From positions 186,001 to 250,000 of the forward strand of contig NZ_JQKJ01000002.1 of the NCBI RefSeq assembly GCF_000745975.1: a DNA stretch of 64,000 nucleotides, given 5' to 3'. Position numbers and translations under genes: made by a program. Of the stretch, positions 28,568 to 39,343 are shown piece by piece. Position 1 is the stretch's first letter. Every line of letters starts with the position of its first letter. The notes under the pieces were generated by a model. That model saw only the letters and a program-made list of their open reading frames with translations. It made no database searches and was not told where the DNA came from. The stretch is from Desulfobacter vibrioformis DSM 8776 (lineage in GTDB: Bacteria > Desulfobacterota > Desulfobacteria > Desulfobacterales > Desulfobacteraceae).

Positions 28568-28634
28568 AATAGGAACTTCCTTTTTGTCTGGCAAGGTATA
28601 GCAAATCATGACAAGATCATCAAGATCCTGAAAT

Positions 28635-29144
28635 ATGGCCTATTGCCTGATGCCCAATCACATCCACCTGATTGCAGTTCCTGAAACCAAGGATGGATGA
28701 AATCTGGCAATCGAGGAAGCGCACAGGCGGTATACGATAATGATCAACTTCAGGGAAGGTTGGCGCGGTCATTTATGGCAGGGGCGGTTTGCGTCATTCA
28801 TCATGGAAGAAAGTTAATTATTGGCGTGTACACGGTATATTGAGTATAATCCAGTCCGTGCCGGTCTTGCAAAACGTCCTGAGAATTGAAATGGGGCAGC
28901 GCCGGAGCACATATGGATGAAATGGATGACGTTCTTGTTAAAAAAAGCCCCACTTCTCAAGATTGTCAATGCGCCCTGGGATGATTTTTTATCTTTTGAT
29001 AGCAAAGCATCTGAAATTGAATTGTTCAGAAAGCATGAACGGACCGGCCGACCGTTGGGAAAAACAACTTTTGTAAAACAATTGGAGACTATTTTAGACA
29101 GACGTCTCAGGCCGAAAAAGGCTGGTCGAAAGGAAAATAGGTAA
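28635..29144 (+). pseudogene. Decayed REP-associated tyrosine (Y1) transposase
   Basis: A 5'-truncated and degenerate relative of the RAYT/IS200-like Y1 transposases. It opens with AYCLMPNHIHLIAVPETKDG, which contains the HxH metal site of the family, then an in-frame TGA, then EEAHRRYT and the segment HLWQGRFASFIMEE, a TAA, RYIEYNPVRAGL, and finally the conserved tail LFRKHERTGRPLGKTTF. I count two in-frame stops and at least two single-base frameshifts, and the first third of the protein is missing. The catalytic tyrosine position is not preserved in a translatable context, so it must be inactive. Such genes mobilise short palindromic repeats, which may explain the repeat-rich surroundings. 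Confidence 0.88.
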
Positions 29145-29160
29145 GGTGTCCCCGGATTTT
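29022..29160 (+). repeat. 139-bp direct repeat, copy B (in the transposase remnant)
   Basis: The partner of 27160-27298. It begins inside the C-terminal coding part of the transposase remnant and ends GGTGTCCCCGGATTTT just past its stop, which may be the natural right end of the element. Confidence 0.93.
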
Positions 29161-29244: not shown

Positions 29245-29260
29245 TGGCATAAGATTTGCT
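29245..29260 (+). promoter_or_regulatory. Candidate sigma-54 (-24/-12) promoter of the PAS/AAA+ activator gene
   Basis: TGGCATAAGATTTGCT has the invariant GG and GC separated by exactly ten bases. It lies 104 bp before the activator ATG. A GTAAC half-site is just upstream (29220), suggesting autogenous control. Confidence 0.65.
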
Positions 29261-29274
29261 GCTATTTATTGATA

Positions 29275-29312
29275 GTTACCAGTTTAACAAAATAGTGAAC
29301 ACCATGGTAACG
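29275..29312 (+). promoter_or_regulatory. GTTACC...GGTAACG inverted repeat in the activator leader
   Basis: Divergent half-sites of the GTAACG motif lie between the predicted transcription start and the ATG of the activator. The same motif appears at the operon it faces, so this may be a feedback site. Confidence 0.45.
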
Positions 29313-29363
29313 CATATGTTTTCATAGTGCGGCCATAATACCCTTTGGACACAGGATCTGCCG

Positions 29364-30788
29364 ATGAAAAAGCATGAGATTTGGGATGTACCGTTTTTAA
29401 ATCAAATTCTTGACACCATGGCCGAAGGACTTTTCATCATGGATTCCAAAGGTGTGATTATCTCCTGGAACCGGTCCATGGAAAAGATCACCGGGTACAC
29501 GGCACAACAAGCCATTGGCAAGACCTGCGGTCTCATTGAGTGCAGCCGCTGTTTTGGCCATAACTGCCCGGCAGATATCCGGAAATGCGGCGTGATCGAA
29601 CACGGCAAAACCGAACCCAAAGAGTGCTTTATCCGCCACAGCCTGGGCCATGATGTCCCGGTCATCAAAAATGCCAGGCTGATAAAGGACGAAAATGACC
29701 GCATCCATGGCATTGTCGAGACCATCACGGATCTGACCGAACTTAAAAATGTCCGAAAGACTGCGGAAGAGGCCACCAGAAAACTTAAAAAAACCTATGA
29801 GTTGGGTAACATCATTGGAAAAAGCCCGGCCATACAGAATGTCTTTGATGCGATCCGGGCTGCGGCCAACAGCCAGGCAAGCATCCTTATCCATGGCGAA
29901 AGCGGCACGGGCAAGGAACTTGTGGCCGGGGCCATCCATTACAGCGGCACCCATGATGACAAGCCCATGGTAACGGTCAACTGTTCAGCCTTGTCGGAAA
30001 CGCTTTTGGAAAGCGAGCTGTTCGGCCATGTAAAAGGGGCGTTCACAGGCGCCCACAGGGACCGGAAAGGCCGGTTTGAAGAGGCGGACCAGGGCACCAT
30101 TTTTCTGGACGAGATTGGCGAACTCACCCCGTATATGCAGGTGAAACTTCTCAGGGTCCTCCAGGAGAGGGAGATCGAGAGGGTCGGAGACTCAAGAAAA
30201 ATCAAAATTGATATCCGGATTATCGCAGCCACCCACCAGGATCTTTTCCGCCTGGTCCGTGAAGGAAAATTTCGTGAGGATCTGTTTTACCGGCTCAAGG
30301 TTTTCCCTGTCTATGTGCCGCCGTTGCGGGAAAGAAAGTGCGATATCCCGATGCTGGTCAACCATTTCATGGGAAAGGGGAATAAAAGGGAAGGGAAAAA
30401 TATACTTAAAGTCAGCCCCGAAGCCATGAGAAAAATAATGGCGCATCCCTGGCCGGGAAACGTCCGGGAGCTGGAAAACGCCATAGAGCACGCCTTTGTC
30501 CTTTGCGAAGCAGGCCAGATCGAGTTAAAGGATCTTCCCATCGAAATCCTTGAAAAAAACAGTTTTCCGCTTCCTTCTCCAATGAACCGGTATCCGTCCC
30601 CTGAATTCTCCTATCAGAAAGTGACCCGGGAAAGCCTGATTCAACTGCTTGAACAATGCCACTGGAACAAGGCCGAAGTGGCCCGGCGCATTAATAAGAG
30701 CAGAACCTCTGTCTGGAAATACATGAAAAAATGGGATATCCCGCTGGATCCCCATGGTAACGCCCTCAATCCGTTACCTGTTAACTGA
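29364..30788 (+). CDS. Sigma-54-dependent activator with cysteine-rich PAS domain
   Basis: A 474-residue bacterial enhancer-binding protein. Residues ~10-125 form a PAS domain with an unusual set of cysteines (CGLIECSRCFGHNCP, then RKCGVIE), which could hold a metal/Fe-S centre or sense thiols. The AAA+ domain (~145-380) has Walker A HGESGTGKE, an intact GAFTGA sigma-54 loop, and FLDEIGEL; a Fis-type HTH (CHWNKAEVARRINKSRTSVWKY) ends the protein. It is followed, after a small minus-strand gene, by the TusA-Hdr operon, which has a -24/-12 promoter and matching palindromes; it is the likely activator of that operon and possibly of itself. Confidence 0.92.
   Translation: MKKHEIWDVPFLNQILDTMAEGLFIMDSKGVIISWNRSMEKITGYTAQQAIGKTCGLIECSRCFGHNCPADIRKCGVIEHGKTEPKECFIRHSLGHDVPVIKNARLIKDENDRIHGIVETITDLTELKNVRKTAEEATRKLKKTYELGNIIGKSPAIQNVFDAIRAAANSQASILIHGESGTGKELVAGAIHYSGTHDDKPMVTVNCSALSETLLESELFGHVKGAFTGAHRDRKGRFEEADQGTIFLDEIGELTPYMQVKLLRVLQEREIERVGDSRKIKIDIRIIAATHQDLFRLVREGKFREDLFYRLKVFPVYVPPLRERKCDIPMLVNHFMGKGNKREGKNILKVSPEAMRKIMAHPWPGNVRELENAIEHAFVLCEAGQIELKDLPIEILEKNSFPLPSPMNRYPSPEFSYQKVTRESLIQLLEQCHWNKAEVARRINKSRTSVWKYMKKWDIPLDPHGNALNPLPVN
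30757..30777 (+). promoter_or_regulatory. Palindromic GTAACG-N9-CGTTAC site (first copy)
   Basis: Six-base arms pair perfectly around CCCTCAATC. The site overlaps the last codons of the activator gene. The near-identical site at 31372 (spacer CTCCCCATC) supports a shared binding protein. A further GTAACG follows at 30790. Confidence 0.6.
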
Positions 30789-30910
30789 AGTAACGGTGTA
30801 GTTAATGGCACGGGTCGGGATCGAGTATACGGTCCCCAAAATTCAAAGCCGGGGGCTTGGTCCGGCCCCCGGCTTAACCCGCATCCTAGTCTGTGTGCGA
30901 ATCAGCCTTG

Positions 30911-31246
30911 TTAATAAGTACCTTCATTGCTTCTACACCCTGCTTCTTCTTCCTCTACCTGGCGGGCATATTCGGCGATATGCGCCAACTGTTCCATAAT
31001 TTGCTTTAATGACTTGATTACCGCTTCTTCGCCGTGCGCCAATGACATCCGGCGAGTGATCAGTTCTAAAAGCCTGGTATACCCCTTGATACCGCCACCC
31101 ATTGACTCTGACTTTACGGATTGGATTGCAAGTTCGATAACAGTGGACACTTCGTCTTCATTCATCTGGTCGGGATAATCCGCTTTGGGATTTGTCTTTA
31201 AATCGTTCAAAAAGGCCATGATGTTGGGATAAAAATCGTCTTGCAT
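30911..31246 (-). CDS. Small acidic protein of unknown function
   Basis: I do not recognise this 111-residue protein. It is hydrophilic and largely helical by appearance, with no membrane segment, and ends with an acidic stretch followed by a single Cys (EEEEAGC). A very strong ribosome site (CAGGAGGAT) lies seven bases before the ATG, which is the main reason to accept it as real. It sits in opposite orientation between the sigma-54 activator and the operon that the activator probably controls, and starts ~120 bp from the GTAACG sites upstream of the operon, so it may share that control region. Confidence 0.65.
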   Translation of the reverse strand: MQDDFYPNIMAFLNDLKTNPKADYPDQMNEDEVSTVIELAIQSVKSESMGGGIKGYTRLLELITRRMSLAHGEEAVIKSLKQIMEQLAHIAEYARQVEEEEAGCRSNEGTY

Positions 31247-31371
31247 GGATAATCCTCCTGTTCAATGGATATTAATTTACGGTGAATACGTTTTATGCAC
31301 GGATAAAAAGCATATCTTTAAATATAAAACCGGCTTGCCAAGTATCAAGGGGCATAAATTTGATTCGCATA

Positions 31372-31420
31372 GTAACGCTCCCCATCCGTTAACCCATTAA
31401 CTAAAGTAACCAAAGTAACG
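31372..31420 (+). promoter_or_regulatory. Likely upstream activating sequence of the TusA-Hdr operon
   Basis: GTAACG-N9-CGTTAA (31372-31392) is followed by the tandem nonamers AAAGTAACC and AAAGTAACG (31403-31420). The cluster ends ~110 bp upstream of the -24/-12 promoter, the usual distance for an enhancer-binding protein. Confidence 0.6.
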
Positions 31421-31532
31421 TCGGTACAGAACAGCCTGTGCCCCGGCTCTTGCCCACATCAGACAGCAAAAACTCTTTTAATTTCAGGGTGTTTTGACTT
31501 TTCACGATTTTCTTTTTCTCTTTTCCCCCCAC

Positions 31533-31548
31533 TGGCACCTGCCTTGCT
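31533..31548 (+). promoter_or_regulatory. Sigma-54 (-24/-12) promoter of the TusA-Hdr operon
   Basis: TGGCACCTGCCTTGCT matches TGGCAC-N5-TTGC(A/T) essentially exactly, with GG and GC ten bases apart. It lies 72 bp before the tusA-like start. The next operon genes follow without another visible promoter. Confidence 0.8.
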
Positions 31549-31619
31549 CTTATATGCTTTCATAGGGATCACCTTGAAATACACAAAATTTTCAACACAA
31601 AATGAAAGGAATAAAGATC

Positions 31620-31868
31620 ATGACGGATTTAAACACAATCGAAGCTGCAAACATCGCTGACGCCCGTGGAAGTGCATGTCCCGGTCCTCTTCTTGAAGCC
31701 AAAAAAGGCATTGGCAAAGTCCAGGTGGGCCAGATCCTTGAAATTCTGTCCAATGATGAAGGAACCCGGAATGATATCCCGGCCTGGGCCGGCAAGGTTG
31801 GACACGAATATATGGGCTTTCTTGAAGCTGACGGGTTTGACAGACATTTTGTCACCCGGAACAAATAA
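31620..31868 (+). CDS. TusA-family sulfur carrier protein
   Basis: An 82-residue SirA/TusA-fold protein. The sulfur-binding cysteine lies in ARGSACPGPLLEAKK (CPxP motif, residues ~16-30), where it can carry a persulfide. Family members relay sulfur between rhodaneses, DsrE proteins and target enzymes. AAAGGA precedes the ATG at 31620; an ATG six codons earlier lacks a ribosome site. It is the first gene of the sigma-54-controlled operon that also holds a DsrE-type gene at the other end, so it probably delivers or accepts sulfane sulfur for the Hdr-like complex. Confidence 0.9.
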   Translation: MTDLNTIEAANIADARGSACPGPLLEAKKGIGKVQVGQILEILSNDEGTRNDIPAWAGKVGHEYMGFLEADGFDRHFVTRNK

Positions 31869-31878
31869 GGCGGCGGCC

Positions 31879-32283
31879 ATGTCTTCCAAGGCAAATAAAA
31901 TATTAATCCTGGCTACGGAAACCTGCGCCTATCCGGGTGCGGATTCCGTGGGCCAGGCCCACTCCAGCTATCCGGCCAATACCTATATTCTCAGGGTCAA
32001 AGCCCCGGTGCTGTTCCCGGAATCCTTTTACATTGACTGTTTTAAAAAGGGCATCAGCGGGATCATCGTGATGTCCTGCGGGGAAGAGTGCCCCTATGAG
32101 GGGGCTTACAAGGCCCTGGCCGACCGGCTTAATTCGGTCTACCAGAAGATGAAGGCATTGAACCTGGATTTAAAGCGGCTTCGCCTGACTGCCATCTGCA
32201 CCGTGTGCAACCGCGCTTTTTTAAATGAGATCAACCAGATGAACGAACTGGTCAACAAACTGGGGCCGCCCCAGCCGGCATAA
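31879..32283 (+). CDS. MvhD-type hydrogenase/heterodisulfide reductase iron-sulfur subunit
   Basis: A 134-residue protein of the MvhD/FlpD family (hydrogenase delta subunit). Cysteines lie in CAYPGADSVG, MSCGEECPYEGAYK and ICTVCNRAF, in the family order, and would hold a [2Fe-2S] cluster. In methanogens MvhD passes electrons from a hydrogenase to HdrA during flavin-based electron bifurcation. Here it starts 10 bp after the tusA-like gene and precedes two HdrA-like genes, so it is likely the electron-entry subunit. No hydrogenase gene is present in the window. Confidence 0.87.
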   Translation: MSSKANKILILATETCAYPGADSVGQAHSSYPANTYILRVKAPVLFPESFYIDCFKKGISGIIVMSCGEECPYEGAYKALADRLNSVYQKMKALNLDLKRLRLTAICTVCNRAFLNEINQMNELVNKLGPPQPA

Positions 32284-32334
32284 TGACTCCGGCGGAACAA
32301 AGAAAACTGACCCACTCATCTATCAGGAGGAACC

Positions 32335-33627
32335 ATGCCCCCCATTCAACACTTTGACACCCTTGTGGTGGGCGCAGGAATATCCGGGCTCCAAACCGCC
32401 CTGGATCTGGGCGACCAGGGATACAAGGTCGCAGTCCTGGAAAAGGATGCGTCCATCGGCGGAAAAATGATCCGGCTATCCAAGGTCTTCCCCACCCTGG
32501 ACTGCGCCAGCTGCATCACCACGCCCAAGATGTCGTCGGCAGCCCACCATGAAAACATCACCTTGTTCACCTATTGCCGTTTGTCCGATTTAAAGCAGAC
32601 CCCGGCCGGTGTCTCGGCCAAAATTCGCCGGATGCCCCGGTATGTGGACTCAGACAAGTGCATTGGGTGCCGGAAATGCGAATATGTCTGCCCGGTATAT
32701 GTCCCGGATGAAGAACAGGGGGGCTTCAGCGCCAAAAAGGCGATTTCCATTCCCTTTTCCAACGCCATTCCCCAGTTGCCGGTGCTGGACCCCGGGTTTT
32801 GCATGCTCTGCGGACGGTGCGAAAAGGCCTGTCCCACCCAGGCCATCGACTATCTCCAGGAACCTGAAGATTTCACTATCCAGGCCAGAACCGCAGTGCT
32901 CACCACCGGGTTTGACATGCTGCCCAAGAAGAAAAATGTGCAATTTGGAAACGGCCGGATCCCCAATGTGATTGATTCGTTGCAGATGGAACGGCTTTTG
33001 GCTCCCCATGGCCCGTATAACAGAGTTCTGCGCCCATCCGACGGCATGGAGCCCGATTCTGTGGCCTATGTCCAGTGCGCAGGTTCCCGGGACAAACAAA
33101 TGGGCGTGCCCTATTGTTCGCGGGTCTGCTGCATGTATGCCATCAAGCAGGCCATGCTGCTGTCCGGTTCCCTGCCCCTGGCCGACATCACCATTTACTA
33201 CATGGATATCCGGGCCTTTGGCAAAGGATATGAACAGTTCTACCAGAATGCCAAGGCCATGGGTATTGAGTTTGTAAAGGCCAAGGTGGGCCGCATTGAC
33301 CAAGGAGAAAACGGGAACGTCAAGGTGCGGTACGAACGCCAGGACGGCGCAGGCATTGATACGGCCAGCCACGATCTGGTTGTCCTCTCCATGGGCATGG
33401 TGCCGGGCTGGGATCCTGCCGGTGTCTGTCCGGTGTCAACGGACACGGACAAGTTTATTACATCTGTCAAACCTAAAATATCTGCCGTACTCACGGACAT
33501 GGACGGGATATTTACCGCAGGCGCTGCGGCCGGTCCCAAGGATATTGTGGATTCCATCACCGAATCGGGAACCGCTGCCATGGAAGCAGCCAATTACATG
33601 GCCGGCCTGCCAGGGGAGGTTCAATGA
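32335..33627 (+). CDS. HdrA-like FAD/iron-sulfur protein (first)
   Basis: A 430-residue flavoprotein related to heterodisulfide reductase subunit A and QmoA. FAD-binding VVGAGISGLQTALDLG is at the N terminus; PTLDCASCITTPKM is the HdrA-type cysteine cluster; two ferredoxin-type clusters follow (CIGCRKCEYVCP and CMLCGRCEKACP, residues ~106-165); a second flavin/NAD segment is toward the C terminus (GIFTAGAAAGPKDI). A good AGGAGG lies ahead of the ATG. Its stop overlaps the start of the next hdrA-like gene by 4 bp. It probably moves electrons among flavin and Fe-S centres in a soluble Hdr-like complex. Confidence 0.92.
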   Translation: MPPIQHFDTLVVGAGISGLQTALDLGDQGYKVAVLEKDASIGGKMIRLSKVFPTLDCASCITTPKMSSAAHHENITLFTYCRLSDLKQTPAGVSAKIRRMPRYVDSDKCIGCRKCEYVCPVYVPDEEQGGFSAKKAISIPFSNAIPQLPVLDPGFCMLCGRCEKACPTQAIDYLQEPEDFTIQARTAVLTTGFDMLPKKKNVQFGNGRIPNVIDSLQMERLLAPHGPYNRVLRPSDGMEPDSVAYVQCAGSRDKQMGVPYCSRVCCMYAIKQAMLLSGSLPLADITIYYMDIRAFGKGYEQFYQNAKAMGIEFVKAKVGRIDQGENGNVKVRYERQDGAGIDTASHDLVVLSMGMVPGWDPAGVCPVSTDTDKFITSVKPKISAVLTDMDGIFTAGAAAGPKDIVDSITESGTAAMEAANYMAGLPGEVQ

Positions 33628-35405
33628 TGAAAGAGAACGATAAAAAAGTCGGCGTATATATCTGCTACTGCGGGGGCAATATCTCGGACCATGTGGATGT
33701 GGAAGCGGTCAGGAACCGGGTTGAAAAGATGCCCGGCGTGGCCGTGGCGAAAACCAACATGTTCATGTGTTCAGATCCCGGCCAGGAGCTGATCATCGAC
33801 GATCTGAAAAGCGGAAAAATTGACCGGGTGGTGGTGGCCTCCTGTGCCCCGAGCCTTCATGAAACCACCTTCCGGGGCGCCATTGAACGGGCCGGTGCCA
33901 ACCCCTTTATTTATGAGCATGCCAACATCCGCGAACAGGTCTCCTGGGTTCACCATGGTGATCCGGCCACGGACAAGGCAACGGTTCTTATTTCAGCAGC
34001 CGCCGCAAAAGCGAGAAAACTCAAACCCCTGGAACCCATCCGCGTGGATGCCAAAAAACATGCCGTGGTCATTGGCGGCGGCATTGCAGGGATCAAATCA
34101 GCCCTGGAGATTGCCCGTAACGGCATTGAGGTGGCCATCATCGAAAAGACCGGCAGCCTGGGGGGGAATTTGAACAATCTTGGCCGCCTGGCTCCGTCCG
34201 GGGAAAACGCCTCGGATATTCTTCAGGAGATTTTGGGCAAGGTTAAAGCCGCACCTTCCATCACCATCCACACCGGATGTGAGGTGACCGATGTCCAGGG
34301 GTATGTGGGAAATTTCACCCTGGATGTAAAGGGGCGCACCGATTCATTTAAAATTGATACGGGCGCCATTGTCATGGCAACAGGATCGGTGTCCTACCAG
34401 CCCTTTGAAGGAGAGTTCGGCTTTGGCACCTATCCCCAGGTCATCACCTTGCCCACCCTGATTGAAGCGCTCAAGCAAAGTAAATATCAGACGGAAACCG
34501 GCTGGTTTGAGTTTGGTGGCAAACCGGTGAGAAACATTGCCATGATTCACTGTGTGGGGTCCAGGCAGATCCCCGGAATCCATGAGCCCAGGGAGAACGG
34601 ACAACTCAACGAGTATTGCTCAAGGACCTGCTGTTCGGCCGTGCTCAACGCGGCCAACCAGATCAAGGAGCGCTTTGCCAAAACCCGGGTTGTTGACATG
34701 TACCGGGATATCCGGACCTATGGCCGGGGCCAGGAGGCGCTTTATGACCGGGCGTCAGCCAACAAGGTCGTATTCATGCGGTATGAGGCCGATGCCATGC
34801 CCACGGTTGAAAAAAGCAGTACCCCGGATTTCCCGTTAACCGTGAAAATCAAAGACGGCCTGACCTTTAACGAGGAGATGGACGTACCGGCGGATCTTGT
34901 GGTCCTTGCAACGGGCATCGAGCCCAGTGATGTATCCGGCCTGGCCTCGGCCATGAAACTGCCCGTGGGAACCGACCGTTTCCTGCTCGAGGTTCATCCC
35001 AAACTGAGACCTGTGGAATTCCCGGTCGCAGGCGTTTTTCTGGCCGGGACCTGCCAGGCGCCCATGGACGCGGGCGAGGCCTGTAATGCCGCAGGTGCCG
35101 CTGCCGCCAAAACCTGTGCCCTGCTCAGCAAAGGCGTGATTGAACTGGACCCCTTTGTGGCCGAGGTTAACCCGGACAAATGCCAGGGACACGGAAATTG
35201 CGTGGATGCCTGCATCAAGGAAGGGGCGCTCAAACTGGTTGACGTTCAAAGGGGAGGTAAAACCGTCACCCAGGCCCAGGTGACCGCAGCCATGTGTCTG
35301 GGGTGCGGGGCCTGTGCCGCAGTCTGTCCGGAAAAAGCCATTGATCTTAACGGATGGGCTTTGGAACAATATGAAGATATGGTGGATGCCATTGTTGCCG
35401 CCTGA
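33624..35405 (+). CDS. HdrA-like FAD/iron-sulfur protein (second)
   Basis: A 593-residue HdrA homologue, longer than the first. The N-terminal domain begins VGVYICYCGGNISDHVD with the HdrA cysteine pattern; FAD-binding VVIGGGIAGIKSALEIA is near residue 148; a conserved HCVGSRQ...YCSRTCC region is near residue 315-335; a C-terminal ferredoxin module carries CQGHGNCVDACIKEG and CLGCGACAAVCP (~515-580). A start one codon later is equally possible (ATGATG). HdrA1/HdrA2 pairs of this kind occur in bifurcating Hdr complexes. Overlap with the previous gene implies coupled translation and a shared complex. Confidence 0.92.
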   Translation: MMKENDKKVGVYICYCGGNISDHVDVEAVRNRVEKMPGVAVAKTNMFMCSDPGQELIIDDLKSGKIDRVVVASCAPSLHETTFRGAIERAGANPFIYEHANIREQVSWVHHGDPATDKATVLISAAAAKARKLKPLEPIRVDAKKHAVVIGGGIAGIKSALEIARNGIEVAIIEKTGSLGGNLNNLGRLAPSGENASDILQEILGKVKAAPSITIHTGCEVTDVQGYVGNFTLDVKGRTDSFKIDTGAIVMATGSVSYQPFEGEFGFGTYPQVITLPTLIEALKQSKYQTETGWFEFGGKPVRNIAMIHCVGSRQIPGIHEPRENGQLNEYCSRTCCSAVLNAANQIKERFAKTRVVDMYRDIRTYGRGQEALYDRASANKVVFMRYEADAMPTVEKSSTPDFPLTVKIKDGLTFNEEMDVPADLVVLATGIEPSDVSGLASAMKLPVGTDRFLLEVHPKLRPVEFPVAGVFLAGTCQAPMDAGEACNAAGAAAAKTCALLSKGVIELDPFVAEVNPDKCQGHGNCVDACIKEGALKLVDVQRGGKTVTQAQVTAAMCLGCGACAAVCPEKAIDLNGWALEQYEDMVDAIVAA

Positions 35406-35448
35406 AACCAACCTGTTATCCGTTTCAGGGAAGGGGGAGAAACAGATC

Positions 35449-35766
35449 ATGGAAAAACCAGATAACGATGCCAGAAAAAAGGCCATGAAAAATCTAAGGG
35501 CCAAAAGAAAAGAGACCATTGCGAAAAGTACCGCAATGATGAAACAGCAGAAAAAACAGGTTCAGGCGATCCTGGACTTTCTTGAAGCAGGGGAAGCCAC
35601 CATCCCGCAAATCGCCCTCAATGTCCATATGCCCACTGACAAAACCCTGTGGTATATGGCCACCTTGAAAAAGTACGGGCAGATTGTGGAAGGCCCCAAG
35701 GACGGTGCATTTTTTAAATACAGATTAAATGCCGGCCCCGGTGCCCCAAAAGAGAACGCAACCTAA
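35449..35766 (+). CDS. Winged-helix-like protein in the Hdr operon
   Basis: A 105-residue protein with a lysine-rich coiled N terminus (residues ~5-40) and a winged-helix-like domain (QVQAILDFLEAGEATIPQIA, then LWYMATLKKYGQIVEGPKDG). AAGGGGGAGA sets the ATG at 35449. It could be a DNA-binding regulator or, as with small helical partners in electron-transfer operons, a scaffold or assembly factor. It sits between the second hdrA-like gene and hdrC, 22 bp before the latter. I do not recognise a named family. Confidence 0.75.
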   Translation: MEKPDNDARKKAMKNLRAKRKETIAKSTAMMKQQKKQVQAILDFLEAGEATIPQIALNVHMPTDKTLWYMATLKKYGQIVEGPKDGAFFKYRLNAGPGAPKENAT

Positions 35767-35787
35767 GGAAAAAGCAAAGGTATCAAT

Positions 35788-36090
35788 ATGAGTACAATTG
35801 ATTTGAATTTTGAAGAAGAACTTAAAACCTTTTGCGAAAATACCGCCCTGGCGTGTTTTAACTGCGGGACCTGCACCGCCGTATGCCCCCTGGTCAATGA
35901 TAATTTTCCCAGAAAAATGATCCGGTATATCCAGGTGGGGGCCAAAGATGCGATTCTTGAAAACGCCAATGAACTGTACAAATGCCTGCACTGCGGGCTG
36001 TGCACCCATACCTGCCCCAGGCAGGCCGATCCCGGCGAGATCATCCTGGGGTTGAAACGGTTTGTTGTGGCAAATTGGAGGAGGTCTTAA
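35788..36090 (+). CDS. HdrC-like two-[4Fe-4S] protein
   Basis: A 100-residue ferredoxin-type protein with two CxxCxxxCP motifs (CFNCGTCTAVCP near residue 23 and CLHCGLCTHTCP near residue 65), the layout of HdrC, the partner that wires HdrA to the HdrB active site. It begins 22 bp after the winged-helix gene and is followed 5 bp later by the HdrB-like gene, the normal HdrC-HdrB order. Confidence 0.92.
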   Translation: MSTIDLNFEEELKTFCENTALACFNCGTCTAVCPLVNDNFPRKMIRYIQVGAKDAILENANELYKCLHCGLCTHTCPRQADPGEIILGLKRFVVANWRRS

Positions 36091-36094
36091 GATT

Positions 36095-37021
36095 ATGTTC
36101 AGTCCAAAAGATATCATTGACGTGCTTGCCCAGAACGTCCGGCAGACCATGAGCCCGTTCGGCATTCCAAGATTCATGGTCAACACATGGCATAAAGACC
36201 AGAACCTTCCCGATGACGGAGAGTACCTTTTGTATACGGGACTGATGTACCAGTTCGCACCCTATATTGAAAAATCCACCCACTACCTGGAATCCTTTGA
36301 AGATACTGCCAAGGCCCGTTACCTGAAATATGCCCGGTATGTCCCGGGATATCTTTCGGGTGCAGGCCTTGCCCTGATGACCCGGGCCAGGAAAAAATCA
36401 GAGGCAGGCCAACCCTTGAAGAATGTGGTGCGCCTGCTCAGGCAGTCCAGGGTGAATTTTGGCTACCGCCCGGACCTGGACCACTATTCGGGCATCCTGC
36501 TTTACGATATGGGGGACCAGAAGAGCTTTATCGCCCATGCCCGAAAAGTAGCCCAAAAACTTCAACGGGCAAAGATCAATAAAATTATCACCATTGATCC
36601 CCATACCACCTATGCGTTAAAGGAACTTTTCCCCAAGTATACCGGGGCACATTTTAAGGTGGTGCCCTATTTTGACCTGCTTAACCTTGGCCCTCAAAAT
36701 GCGGATCTTGAGGTGACCCTGCATGATCCCTGCTTTTTTGGCCGGTATCTCAAGGTCTCTGATATTCCCAGAAAAGTGCTGGCAGGATTGGGAATCCGGG
36801 AAACCCGGATCAGGAATTCAAAGGATTTTACCAGTTGCTGCGGCGGACCTGCCGAATCTGTTTCGCCTAAACTGTCCAGCCGGATTATGGATATCCGGGC
36901 AAAAGAACTGGCAGAACCGGGTAAACCCATTGTCTCCATGTGCCCCATCTGTCTGGGGAATCTTAAAAAGGCCGGGGCAGATGCCAGGGATTTGTCCAGC
37001 CTGCTGGTCCAACACATATAA
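36095..37021 (+). CDS. HdrB/HdrD-like CCG-domain protein
   Basis: A 308-residue protein with one complete CCG domain in the C-terminal half: HDPCFFGRYLK, then SCCGGPAESVS, then CPICLGNL, giving the C-xn-CCG-xn-CxxC ligand pattern. In methanogen HdrB two such domains bind noncubane [4Fe-4S] clusters that reduce a disulfide; here the N-terminal half lacks the second set, so this is a single-CCG variant. GGAGGAGG precedes the ATG at 36095. It is likely to be the catalytic subunit of the operon's complex, acting on a di- or persulfide whose identity is unknown. Confidence 0.87.
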   Translation: MFSPKDIIDVLAQNVRQTMSPFGIPRFMVNTWHKDQNLPDDGEYLLYTGLMYQFAPYIEKSTHYLESFEDTAKARYLKYARYVPGYLSGAGLALMTRARKKSEAGQPLKNVVRLLRQSRVNFGYRPDLDHYSGILLYDMGDQKSFIAHARKVAQKLQRAKINKIITIDPHTTYALKELFPKYTGAHFKVVPYFDLLNLGPQNADLEVTLHDPCFFGRYLKVSDIPRKVLAGLGIRETRIRNSKDFTSCCGGPAESVSPKLSSRIMDIRAKELAEPGKPIVSMCPICLGNLKKAGADARDLSSLLVQHI

Positions 37022-37105
37022 TATTTGAACGAAAAGCCACCCATCTGCGGCGTTGCAGAAAAAACAGTTTGATAACCTAATTTATAAAATAACAGGAGAA
37101 CTCTC

Positions 37106-37480
37106 ATGTCTGAAACAACGGAAAAAATCATCTACTTTTGTACCCATGCCGGTGAAGACGCGGAAAAAGCCTCGATCTGTTTTGCCATGGCAAGCTCTGC
37201 TTTGGCCCTGGAAGTGGAGACCACCGTGGCGCTGCAGGGTTCCGGGGTGTACCTGGCCCAGAAAGGATATGTCGAGCATGTGCCGGCCACAGGAGGTTTT
37301 GCCCCCTTGACCAAACTCATTGGGGACTATATGGAACTGGGCGGAAAACTTCTGGTGTGCAAACCCTGTGTTGAGGAGCGCAAAATCGAAGAATCGGATC
37401 TCATCGAAGGGGCCAAGGTAAGCACCGGCGGAACCTTGAACATGATCGCCCTGGAAGCCGACGCCCAACTGGTGTACTAA
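37106..37480 (+). CDS. DsrE-family protein
   Basis: A 124-residue DsrE/F-fold protein (IIYFCTHAGEDAEKASICFA at the start, VCKPCVEERK near residue 89-98, where a conserved Cys of the family usually sits). DsrE proteins bind persulfide sulfur and exchange it with TusA. AACAGGAGA precedes the ATG. It closes the operon 84 bp after the HdrB-like gene; a short GGCGTTGCAGA repeat lies in that gap. Together with the tusA-like gene it suggests that the Hdr-like complex acts on protein-bound sulfur. Confidence 0.87.
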   Translation: MSETTEKIIYFCTHAGEDAEKASICFAMASSALALEVETTVALQGSGVYLAQKGYVEHVPATGGFAPLTKLIGDYMELGGKLLVCKPCVEERKIEESDLIEGAKVSTGGTLNMIALEADAQLVY

Positions 37481-37789: not shown

Positions 37790-39343
37790 TTAATTGTTTT
37801 TGTAAAGCGATTGTGCCCTGCGCCCGAAGGGAATGCCCAGTTTTTGCATTCGGGATCTCAGGGTTCGGGGATTGATCCCCAGCAGATCCGCCGCCCCCTG
37901 TCCCCCCTCTATCCGTCCGCCGGTCATGTGAAGAACGGAGATAATGTGTCCGGTGATAATCCGGTCCAGTTTGGTCCCGCCTCTGATGGTGGAAACCGCG
38001 GTGGGGTCGAATAGGGCTGCATCAAAAATAATAGGTTTTCCCATGTTGATGATAATCTGGCGTTCGATGACATTTTCCAGTTCCCGTACATTGCCCGGCC
38101 AGTCATACGCCATGAGGGTACGAATTGCACCCGGGGCCACCTCCGGCATATCCGGCAGGGCCATTTCCCTGGCCTTCTTGGCCACCAAATGATAGGCCAT
38201 GGCCGGAATGTCCCCTAACCGTTCCCGCAAGGGAGGGATGGTTATGGGAAAAACATTGAGCCGGAAGAACAGGTCTTCCCGGAAAAGGCCCTGCCTGACC
38301 ATGGCCCCCAGATCCTTGTGCGTTGCCGCCACCACCCGAATGTCCAGCTTCATGGGCTCTTGTCCGCCGACCCGCTCCACCGTCCTGTCCTGCAAAACCC
38401 GCAGCAGCCGGATCTGTGCCTCCTGGGACAACTCAGCCACCTCATCCAAAAAAATCGTTCCATGATCAGCCCGTTCAAAATATCCGGGCCTGGATTGGTT
38501 TGCACCGGTAAAGGCGCCTTTTTCATGGCCGAAAAGCTCGCTTTCAAGCAGGCTTGGGGTAATAGCGCCGCAGTTGATTTTTATAAAAGGCCCTGATTTG
38601 CGGACCGAGGCCCGGTGGATGGCCCCGGCAATGACTTCCTTTCCGGTCCCGGTTTCCCCCAGCAATAAGACGGGGCTGTTTGTCCCGGCAACCTGGCCCA
38701 CGGCCGCCATGACGGTCCTGAGGCCTGACTCGGCACCGACAATCTCATTTTCCACGACACTCATCAACTCCCGGTTCACAAAAGCGTCCCGGTCCGTCAG
38801 CAATTCCCGGACCCGTTCCAGTTCCCGGTATCGGTGAAAGGCCTCCGCTGTTGCGGCCAGCGGTGAATGGATGGAAAGGAACAGTTCTCCCTGCTCTTTT
38901 ACATACTTGTTGCCGGGAGTTCCGGTCAGGGCGGCAAGCCCCAGAAACTGCCCTGACCGGAACAACCGCAGTATCAGGCAGGGCGCATTCGGTGTGCTCA
39001 GGTCTATGCCCAGTTGCCGGGCCTCCGGCACCAGGCTCAAATCGTCGATGATCCGATAGCTGGGCTGGCCTTTCATCCGGTCCACGGCAGCCTTGAACAA
39101 CTGCCGGGATTCAGGAGTTAAGGTGGTTTTATGGGAGACAGCTTCGGACTTTTCAAGGGTGGCGTCCACAACGGTTTCCACCACCCGCAATCCGGGATTA
39201 AACAGGTGGAGGCTGAAAAAATCTGCCGGAATAAAAGGGCGCAGATAGATCAGGCAATCCTGCCAGGCTTTAAAAATAGAGGTATTGTCCAGTAATCGGA
39301 TGGTCGCGTTTCTAAAGAATTCATCCCGAATGTTGATGTTCAT
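37790..39343 (-). CDS. Sigma-54-dependent activator with GAF-type sensor domain
   Basis: A 517-residue enhancer-binding protein. Residues ~15-180 form a GAF-like sensor with no evident cysteine or metal motif. The AAA+ domain (~200-435) has Walker A GETGTGKE, an intact GAFTGA and FLDEVAEL; a Fis-type HTH ([24 protein letters not shown]) ends it. The architecture is like NorR/FhlA-type regulators. It is divergent from the esterase autotransporter gene, whose -24/-12 promoter and upstream 12-bp inverted repeat lie in the 198-bp intergenic region, so that gene is the probable target. The signal is unknown. Confidence 0.92.

Follow-up and report, generated by a model that had tools for sequence, protein, structure and literature searches.

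What does a gene set do that joins sulfur-carrier proteins to subunits of the heterodisulfide reductase (Hdr) family, and how is it switched on? The question is raised by a 64,000-nucleotide (nt) stretch of the Desulfobacter vibrioformis DSM 8776 genome (contig NZ_JQKJ01000002.1, positions 186,001 to 250,000; hereafter the window), in which eight closely spaced genes on the + strand run in the order tusA-mvhD-hdrA1-hdrA2-winged-helix gene-hdrC-hdrB-dsrE, with the gene for a sigma-54 activator in front. The spacing is 10 nt for tusA-mvhD, 51 nt for mvhD-hdrA1, -4 nt (an overlap) for hdrA1/hdrA2, 43 nt for hdrA2 to the winged-helix gene, 21 nt from there to hdrC, 4 nt for hdrC-hdrB and 84 nt for hdrB-dsrE. 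An earlier sequence-only reading had called all of these genes, in one direction, as a single unit, and our analysis bears out both the calls, on the + strand and at the coordinates given below, and the unit. We propose that it is a switchable gene set, nearly unchanged in many sulfate reducers, whose probable task is electron transfer to or from carrier-bound sulfur.

Our view of the system rests first on its conservation. When named genomes were scanned with the HdrA2 of the window, 105 relatives were confirmed, and we retained the 80 best (loci L009-L088); the search patterns came from the window HdrA2 itself, so that distant forms are under-sampled, and several contigs belong to metagenome-assembled genomes (MAGs). 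The order tusA-mvhD-hdrA1-hdrA2-winged-helix gene is intact in 46 of the 46 loci with enough sequence, far beyond chance, and TusA is retained in every locus with sequence. Downstream, 52 loci have at least 3.5 kilobases (kb) 3' of hdrA2. HdrC, HdrB and DsrE follow in 38 of these, with HdrB merely 26-27% identical in five (L073, L075, L078, L080 and L081). A QmoC-like protein stands in place of HdrC and HdrB in nine, all of which keep TusA and MvhD; eight of the nine have a DsrE like that of the window, and the ninth, L086, a protein that matches Pfam DrsE_2. One of these QmoC-like proteins, in L045, reaches 188 bits against the QmoC model, under the 300-bit cut-off. Two further loci (L039 and L077) have HdrC and HdrB with no DsrE in range, and one (L040) has no HdrC, HdrB, DsrE or QmoC-like protein in range.

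This exchange of HdrCB for a QmoC-like protein reveals which parts of the system are constant. The sequence-only reading had assigned disulfide reduction to HdrB with HdrC; the genes are indeed present, but since a QmoC-like protein replaces them in nine of 52 loci, the function common to all loci is not disulfide reduction at HdrB, and a mechanism centred on HdrB was set aside for the same reason. TusA, MvhD, HdrA1 and HdrA2 stay constant while the outlet changes, which makes TusA/DsrE/MvhD/HdrA the most likely side for the sulfur step. The sulfur chemistry thus probably sits on the conserved core and not on HdrB.

Residue conservation is in keeping with the carrier roles that had been predicted for TusA and DsrE. 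The CPGP-motif cysteine of TusA (tusA, 31602-31868, +), C26, is invariant (62/62), as are both vicinal cysteines of the C85-x-x-C88 motif of DsrE (dsrE, 37106-37480, +; 57/57). MvhD, of the FlpD family (mvhD, 31879-32283, +), has cluster-specific cysteines: C107 and C110 occur in 64 of 64 sequences and C54 in 61 of 64, and all three are missing from three other MvhDs, namely the genome's own second MvhD (L004), the L100 MvhD and the solved 9sw2 chain D. HdrA1 (32335-33627, +) consists of a flavin adenine dinucleotide (FAD) domain with an inserted two-cluster ferredoxin domain and matches HdrA residues ~146-562; HdrA2 (33624-35405, +) has the N-terminal HdrA domain, an FAD domain without the ferredoxin insert and a C-terminal ferredoxin domain. 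All eight cluster-ligand cysteines of HdrC (35788-36090, +) are invariant (50/50). In HdrB (36095-37021, +), C213, C248 and C249 are present in 49/49 sequences, C283 in 47/47 and C286 in 48/48, and no conserved cysteine lies N-terminal to C213 among the 49 sequences; HdrB therefore has one CCG site where two are usual, which corrects the earlier picture of this subunit. The protein encoded by the winged-helix gene (35449-35766, +) has no cysteines, and no conserved cysteine appears in its ortholog alignment, making it unlikely to be a thiol sensor of the SoxR kind described in passages of PMC10451225. Some of its orthologs give a weak ArsR/HTH_20-type match, and the window copy gives none above the 0.001 threshold.

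The system is linked to organisms with Dsr proteins. With the winged-helix profile as a proxy for the cluster and matches at E < 1e-20 counted, 32 of 394 genomes of the phylum are carriers (66 match at E up to 0.001), and dsrA is found in 30 of the 32 against 197 of the 394 overall (Fisher p 4e-8, kinship ignored). Among 20 named carriers checked, dsrA is above the cut-off in 17. The window genome itself (4.47 Mb) has dsrA above the family cut-off, and Desulfospira joergensenii (L015) is a cultured carrier.

Based on these observations, we propose a sigma-54-controlled cytoplasmic redox complex acting on sulfane (persulfide) sulfur borne by TusA and DsrE and linked to the DsrC/menaquinone pool, with the oxidative direction leading, a proposal drawn from sequence to which we give an even chance. 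In this complex, TusA Cys26 would bring or take sulfur and the DsrE CxxC would exchange it, while MvhD, with the extra CxxC peculiar to its family, would pass electrons between the sulfur chemistry and the flavin/iron-sulfur pair HdrA1-HdrA2. The outlet would be exchangeable. One form, HdrC plus HdrB, has a single CCG site of the non-cubane kind, as DsrK-type proteins do, and by that analogy HdrB would probably face DsrC or another thiol/disulfide; the other, the QmoC-like membrane subunit, would lead to menaquinone, so that both may feed the same DsrC/menaquinone pool. The cysteine-rich PAS activator would switch the operon on, presumably upon a reactive sulfur or redox signal at its cysteines.

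As to direction, the midpoint potentials of the sulfane/sulfide couple (~-0.25 V) and of menaquinone (~-0.07 V) bear on the choice, as do two carriers. The Rhodospirillales MAGs of L073 and L077 hold dsrAB with dsrE, dsrF, dsrH and dsrC, and that of L077 additionally holds a dsrM-like gene, dsrK and, as a presumed DsrL, an NAD(P)-binding flavoprotein. In L073, COX1 lies on the same contig as the cluster. The dsrEFH genes and DsrL are established markers of the oxidative direction, as also stated in parts of PMC13293266. These potentials and carriers favour flow from sulfur to the pool, and the oxidative direction therefore leads, with the reductive direction nearly as likely.

Several observations weigh against this proposal. 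Most carriers are sulfate reducers of the reductive type, where sulfane sulfur might just as well accept electrons, and a DsrE with a CxxC motif would suit sulfide release. No dsrA was found in two carriers of one genus (G193 and G233) or in the two Anaerolineales loci L086 and L088, and a Geobacteraceae MAG (L066) gives a weak match only. Two of the 52 loci, L050 and L060, have DsrE with neither HdrCB nor a QmoC-like protein within 3.5 kb. No Sulf_transp (PF04143) gene was found in the window genome, so import is no part of the system there. Finally, genes for MetV- and MetF-like proteins in 10-11 of 42 loci point instead to one-carbon (C1) metabolism.

The first two of these points leave room for the strongest rival, a cytoplasmic persulfide reductase in which the DsrE CxxC resolves TusA-SSH, sulfide leaves, and a low-potential donor re-reduces the carrier through MvhD and HdrA, perhaps with bifurcation. 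The invariant CxxC motif of DsrE and the invariant extra CxxC of MvhD would fit this chemistry, as would the predominance of dsrA-bearing Desulfobacterota among carriers and the sulfane import genes of some loci: a Sulf_transp gene lies 3' of dsrE in five Desulfobacterota loci (L017, L046, L052, L054 and L069) and a TsuA-like one in L086, with a rhodanese by Pfam match in L046, L054 and L069 and, by reading only, a 249-amino-acid (aa) frame in L052 closely similar to the rhodanese frames. These neighbours count for the main proposal as well. The QmoC-like variant argues against it, however, as it ties the core to menaquinone, by these potentials a poor donor for sulfane reduction, and so do the two carriers with oxidative-type dsrEFHC sets. 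We regard persulfide reduction as a tentative alternative, possible but not favoured.

A C1-linked role, in which the complex is mainly the electron partner of methylene-tetrahydrofolate reductase (MetV/MetF) and TusA and DsrE are accessory, seems improbable. Among the 42 loci with at least 3 kb 3' of dsrE, MetV is found in 10, MetF in 11 and a further protein, here termed X, in 19, and several are ordered dsrE-X-metV-metF. Yet MetV and MetF are absent from the other loci and from the window, TusA stays in all loci with sequence, and the MetV homolog of the window genome adjoins another HdrA, of 1012 aa, on contig C3. A general partnership with MetVF was set aside on the low count of loci, and a link of carrier-bound sulfur to C1 metabolism is possible where these neighbours occur. 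Slightly less probable still is that TusA and DsrE serve cofactor or transfer RNA thiolation while the Hdr set merely keeps the carriers reduced: the operon tusA is indeed the genome's only free-standing TusA gene (the single other TusA-domain match lies in a 211-aa frame), but neither sigma-54 switching nor the patchy presence of the cluster, in two of ten genomes of the genus and 32 of 394 in the phylum, suits a housekeeping task.

The neighbourhoods of related loci hold further genes. The MetV- and MetF-like genes come after dsrE and X at L014:13243-14921 and also in L012, L016, L028, L045 and others. Protein X (e.g. L014:12516-13241; 27 loci-copies), of ~240 aa, sits after dsrE or beyond the activator; its cysteines C69, C74, C79, C194 and C197 are invariant (27/27), and it has no Pfam or NCBIfam match and no match in the window genome. 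A second TusA-family gene lies near tusA at L014:1132-1419, L018:6164-6397 and L021:2139-2390, its CPxP cysteine being, by reading, Ser in L014, Ala in L018 and kept in L021. An extra HdrA/HdrC-like set immediately follows dsrE at L018:12606-16324, and DUF1638 genes occur near the cluster at L014:3058-3750 and in L028, L044, L070, L078 and L080.

The region upstream of tusA bears on how the proposed redox complex is controlled. The activator gene (29364-30788, +) encodes a PAS domain, an AAA+ (Sigma54_activat) domain with, as had been noted, an intact GAFTGA motif, and a Fis-type helix-turn-helix. The -24/-12 promoter, TGGCACCTGCCTTGCT at 31533-31548 (+), had been described as near-perfect; it in fact matches TGGCACN5TTGCW with zero mismatches and is supported by conservation across loci. 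Of 59 loci, counting the window, 34 have a site with no more than one mismatch in the 300 bp 5' of the tusA run, and in 16 it is exact, against 0.25% and 0, respectively, in shuffle controls and 0 of 39 control stretches 5' of hdrC; in 20 of the 59, the best candidate is no better than three mismatches. Another -24/-12-like site, with one mismatch, precedes the activator gene (29245-29260, +) and is by itself not above chance, because the window holds 2 such matches where 3.0 are expected. Sigma-70-like sites number 10 in the region against 8.5 expected from shuffles, a count by which such promoters are neither shown nor excluded.

Of 45 loci, 33 have a sigma-54 activator gene, in most cases divergent, within 3 kb 5' of mvhD, and the other 12 lack one at that distance. 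The linked activators fall into two types, a divergent type and a window type; the former is a label by sequence and includes those of L015 and L016, whose activator gene is on the + strand. The PAS domain is cysteine-rich, as the sequence-only reading had it. In the divergent type C53, C58, C61 and C74 are present in 38/38 and C89 in 37/38; the window copy has six cysteines (residues 55, 60, 63, 68, 75 and 88), of which C55, C63 and C68 are found in 7/7 and C75 and C88 in 6/7 window-type rows, a set that includes paralogs from elsewhere in the loci. With loci grouped only by linked activator, GTTAA/TTAAC words occur 116 times 5' of 34 divergent-type loci against 30.4 in shuffles (highest 47), and GTAAC/GTTAC words 10 times 5' of three window-type loci (the window, L014 and L028) against 2.4 (highest 7). 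L015, divergent by sequence, carries GTAAC-type words, so that activator type and word are not strictly paired. Candidate activator-binding sites in the window are two overlapping TAAC(T/C)AAAGTAAC words at 31398-31419 (+), ~115-135 bp 5' of the promoter and in line with the GTAAC/GTTAC enrichment, and TAACTGAAGTAAC at 30782-30794 (+), with three word matches in the window against 0.11 expected; TAACTNAAGTAAC has three window occurrences with at most one mismatch, again against 0.11. The promoter, the GAFTGA activator and the upstream sites, all read from sequence, together support the predicted sigma-54 control of the operon.

Around these elements, a 111-aa minus-strand frame (30914-31246, -) lies between the activator gene and tusA; it was not found in the 80 related loci searched and has no PHROGs match. 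A second sigma-54 activator gene, without a PAS match (37790-39343, -), converges on the operon, and a decayed transposase-like stretch, by reading, lies 5' of the first (28617-29150).

The operon shares features with several known systems, and is neither sHdr nor Qmo. As in sHdr, TusA and a DsrE protein accompany Hdr subunits, and YeeE-like import is sometimes present. Passages of PMC6397845 give the sHdr order as hdrCBA-hyp-hdrCB, with two HdrB, two HdrC and one HdrA, and PMC6067878 describes a lipoate-binding protein as "inevitably associated" with sHdr. In contrast, the operon has one hdrB, one hdrC, two hdrA and an mvhD, and no linked lipoate-binding protein, the genome's sole GCV_H-type gene being on contig C5 and the operon on C2; membership in sHdr was rejected on this gene content. 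Regulation also differs, through a sigma-54 activator here and the ArsR-type sHdrR there. QmoABC and QmoAB-HdrBC likewise have two HdrA-like subunits and an outlet that is QmoC-like or HdrCB, an exchange also reported for Qmo in passages of PMC13416013. Yet in a tree of 68 rows, one branch comprises HdrA1 and another HdrA2 (support 100/100 each), both outside QmoA+QmoB (100/99), which led us to reject Qmo membership, and the window genome has separate QmoAB-like genes. The YTD cluster (yeeE-tusA-dsrEFH type II) also pairs TusA with DsrE in Dsr organisms, and five of our Desulfobacterota loci have Sulf_transp, but the described cluster is without Hdr and MvhD subunits, and our unit has one dsrE, not three. 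The HdrABC-MvhD complex of methanogens has homologs of HdrA, MvhD, HdrB and HdrC and bifurcates electrons, a property that only homology would suggest here; the operon differs in its split double HdrA, its single CCG motif in HdrB instead of two, and a unit without a hydrogenase or formate dehydrogenase gene.

The sequence-only reading had also set the operon apart from sHdr by MvhD and the double HdrA. The distinction holds, but HdrAs are paired elsewhere too: fused double HdrAs of ~1010 aa, found with MvhD and, for example, beside MetVF, are common in relatives. HdrA1 has its counterpart in their N-terminal half and HdrA2 in their C-terminal half. The tree places HdrA2 with the C-terminal halves (100/97), making its origin as part of a split double HdrA firm; HdrA1 shows no clearly supported grouping with the N-terminal halves, and its matching origin is suggested by architecture. 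At L099, L101, L102, L110, L112 and L113 of relatives, the fused protein has one in-frame TGA, probably encoding selenocysteine. The distinctive feature is the splitting of the pair into two separate genes, combined with TusA, DsrE, the winged-helix protein and the additional cysteines of MvhD. For both HdrA halves, the sister of the window is Desulfospira joergensenii; the sole cluster-bearing congener (G400, L097) branches with L044 instead. This placement and the presence of an ortholog at ~70% identity or more in only two of ten genomes of the genus (one of the ten being 56% complete) suggest horizontal movement or loss of the cluster. A literature search, covering sources in part, found no published description of the whole gene set, which does not establish that none exists. 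HdrA neighbourhoods are mentioned in PMC10553843, together with a pair of adjacent HdrABC copies in Seep-SRB1g, and according to PMC5109826 hdrA2 of Desulfococcus multivorans lies next to hdrBC and mvhD2; the same cluster could underlie either mention.

For the question of how sulfate reducers deal with sulfane sulfur (polysulfide, S0, thiosulfate), and how some of them oxidize or disproportionate it, a compact, switchable and widely conserved module joining sulfur carriers to a flavin/iron-sulfur complex offers a concrete genetic target. A bolder reading of the same genes, which we consider doubtful, places them next to sHdr and Qmo as a third sulfur system of the Hdr type. They would encode a flavin-bifurcating sulfide/persulfide-linked oxidoreductase in which TusA/DsrE-bound sulfur donates electrons via MvhD; its high-potential branch would be DsrC or menaquinone and its low-potential branch ferredoxin. 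If this were true, sulfate reducers and Dsr-type sulfur oxidizers would gain energy from sulfane sulfur on demand.

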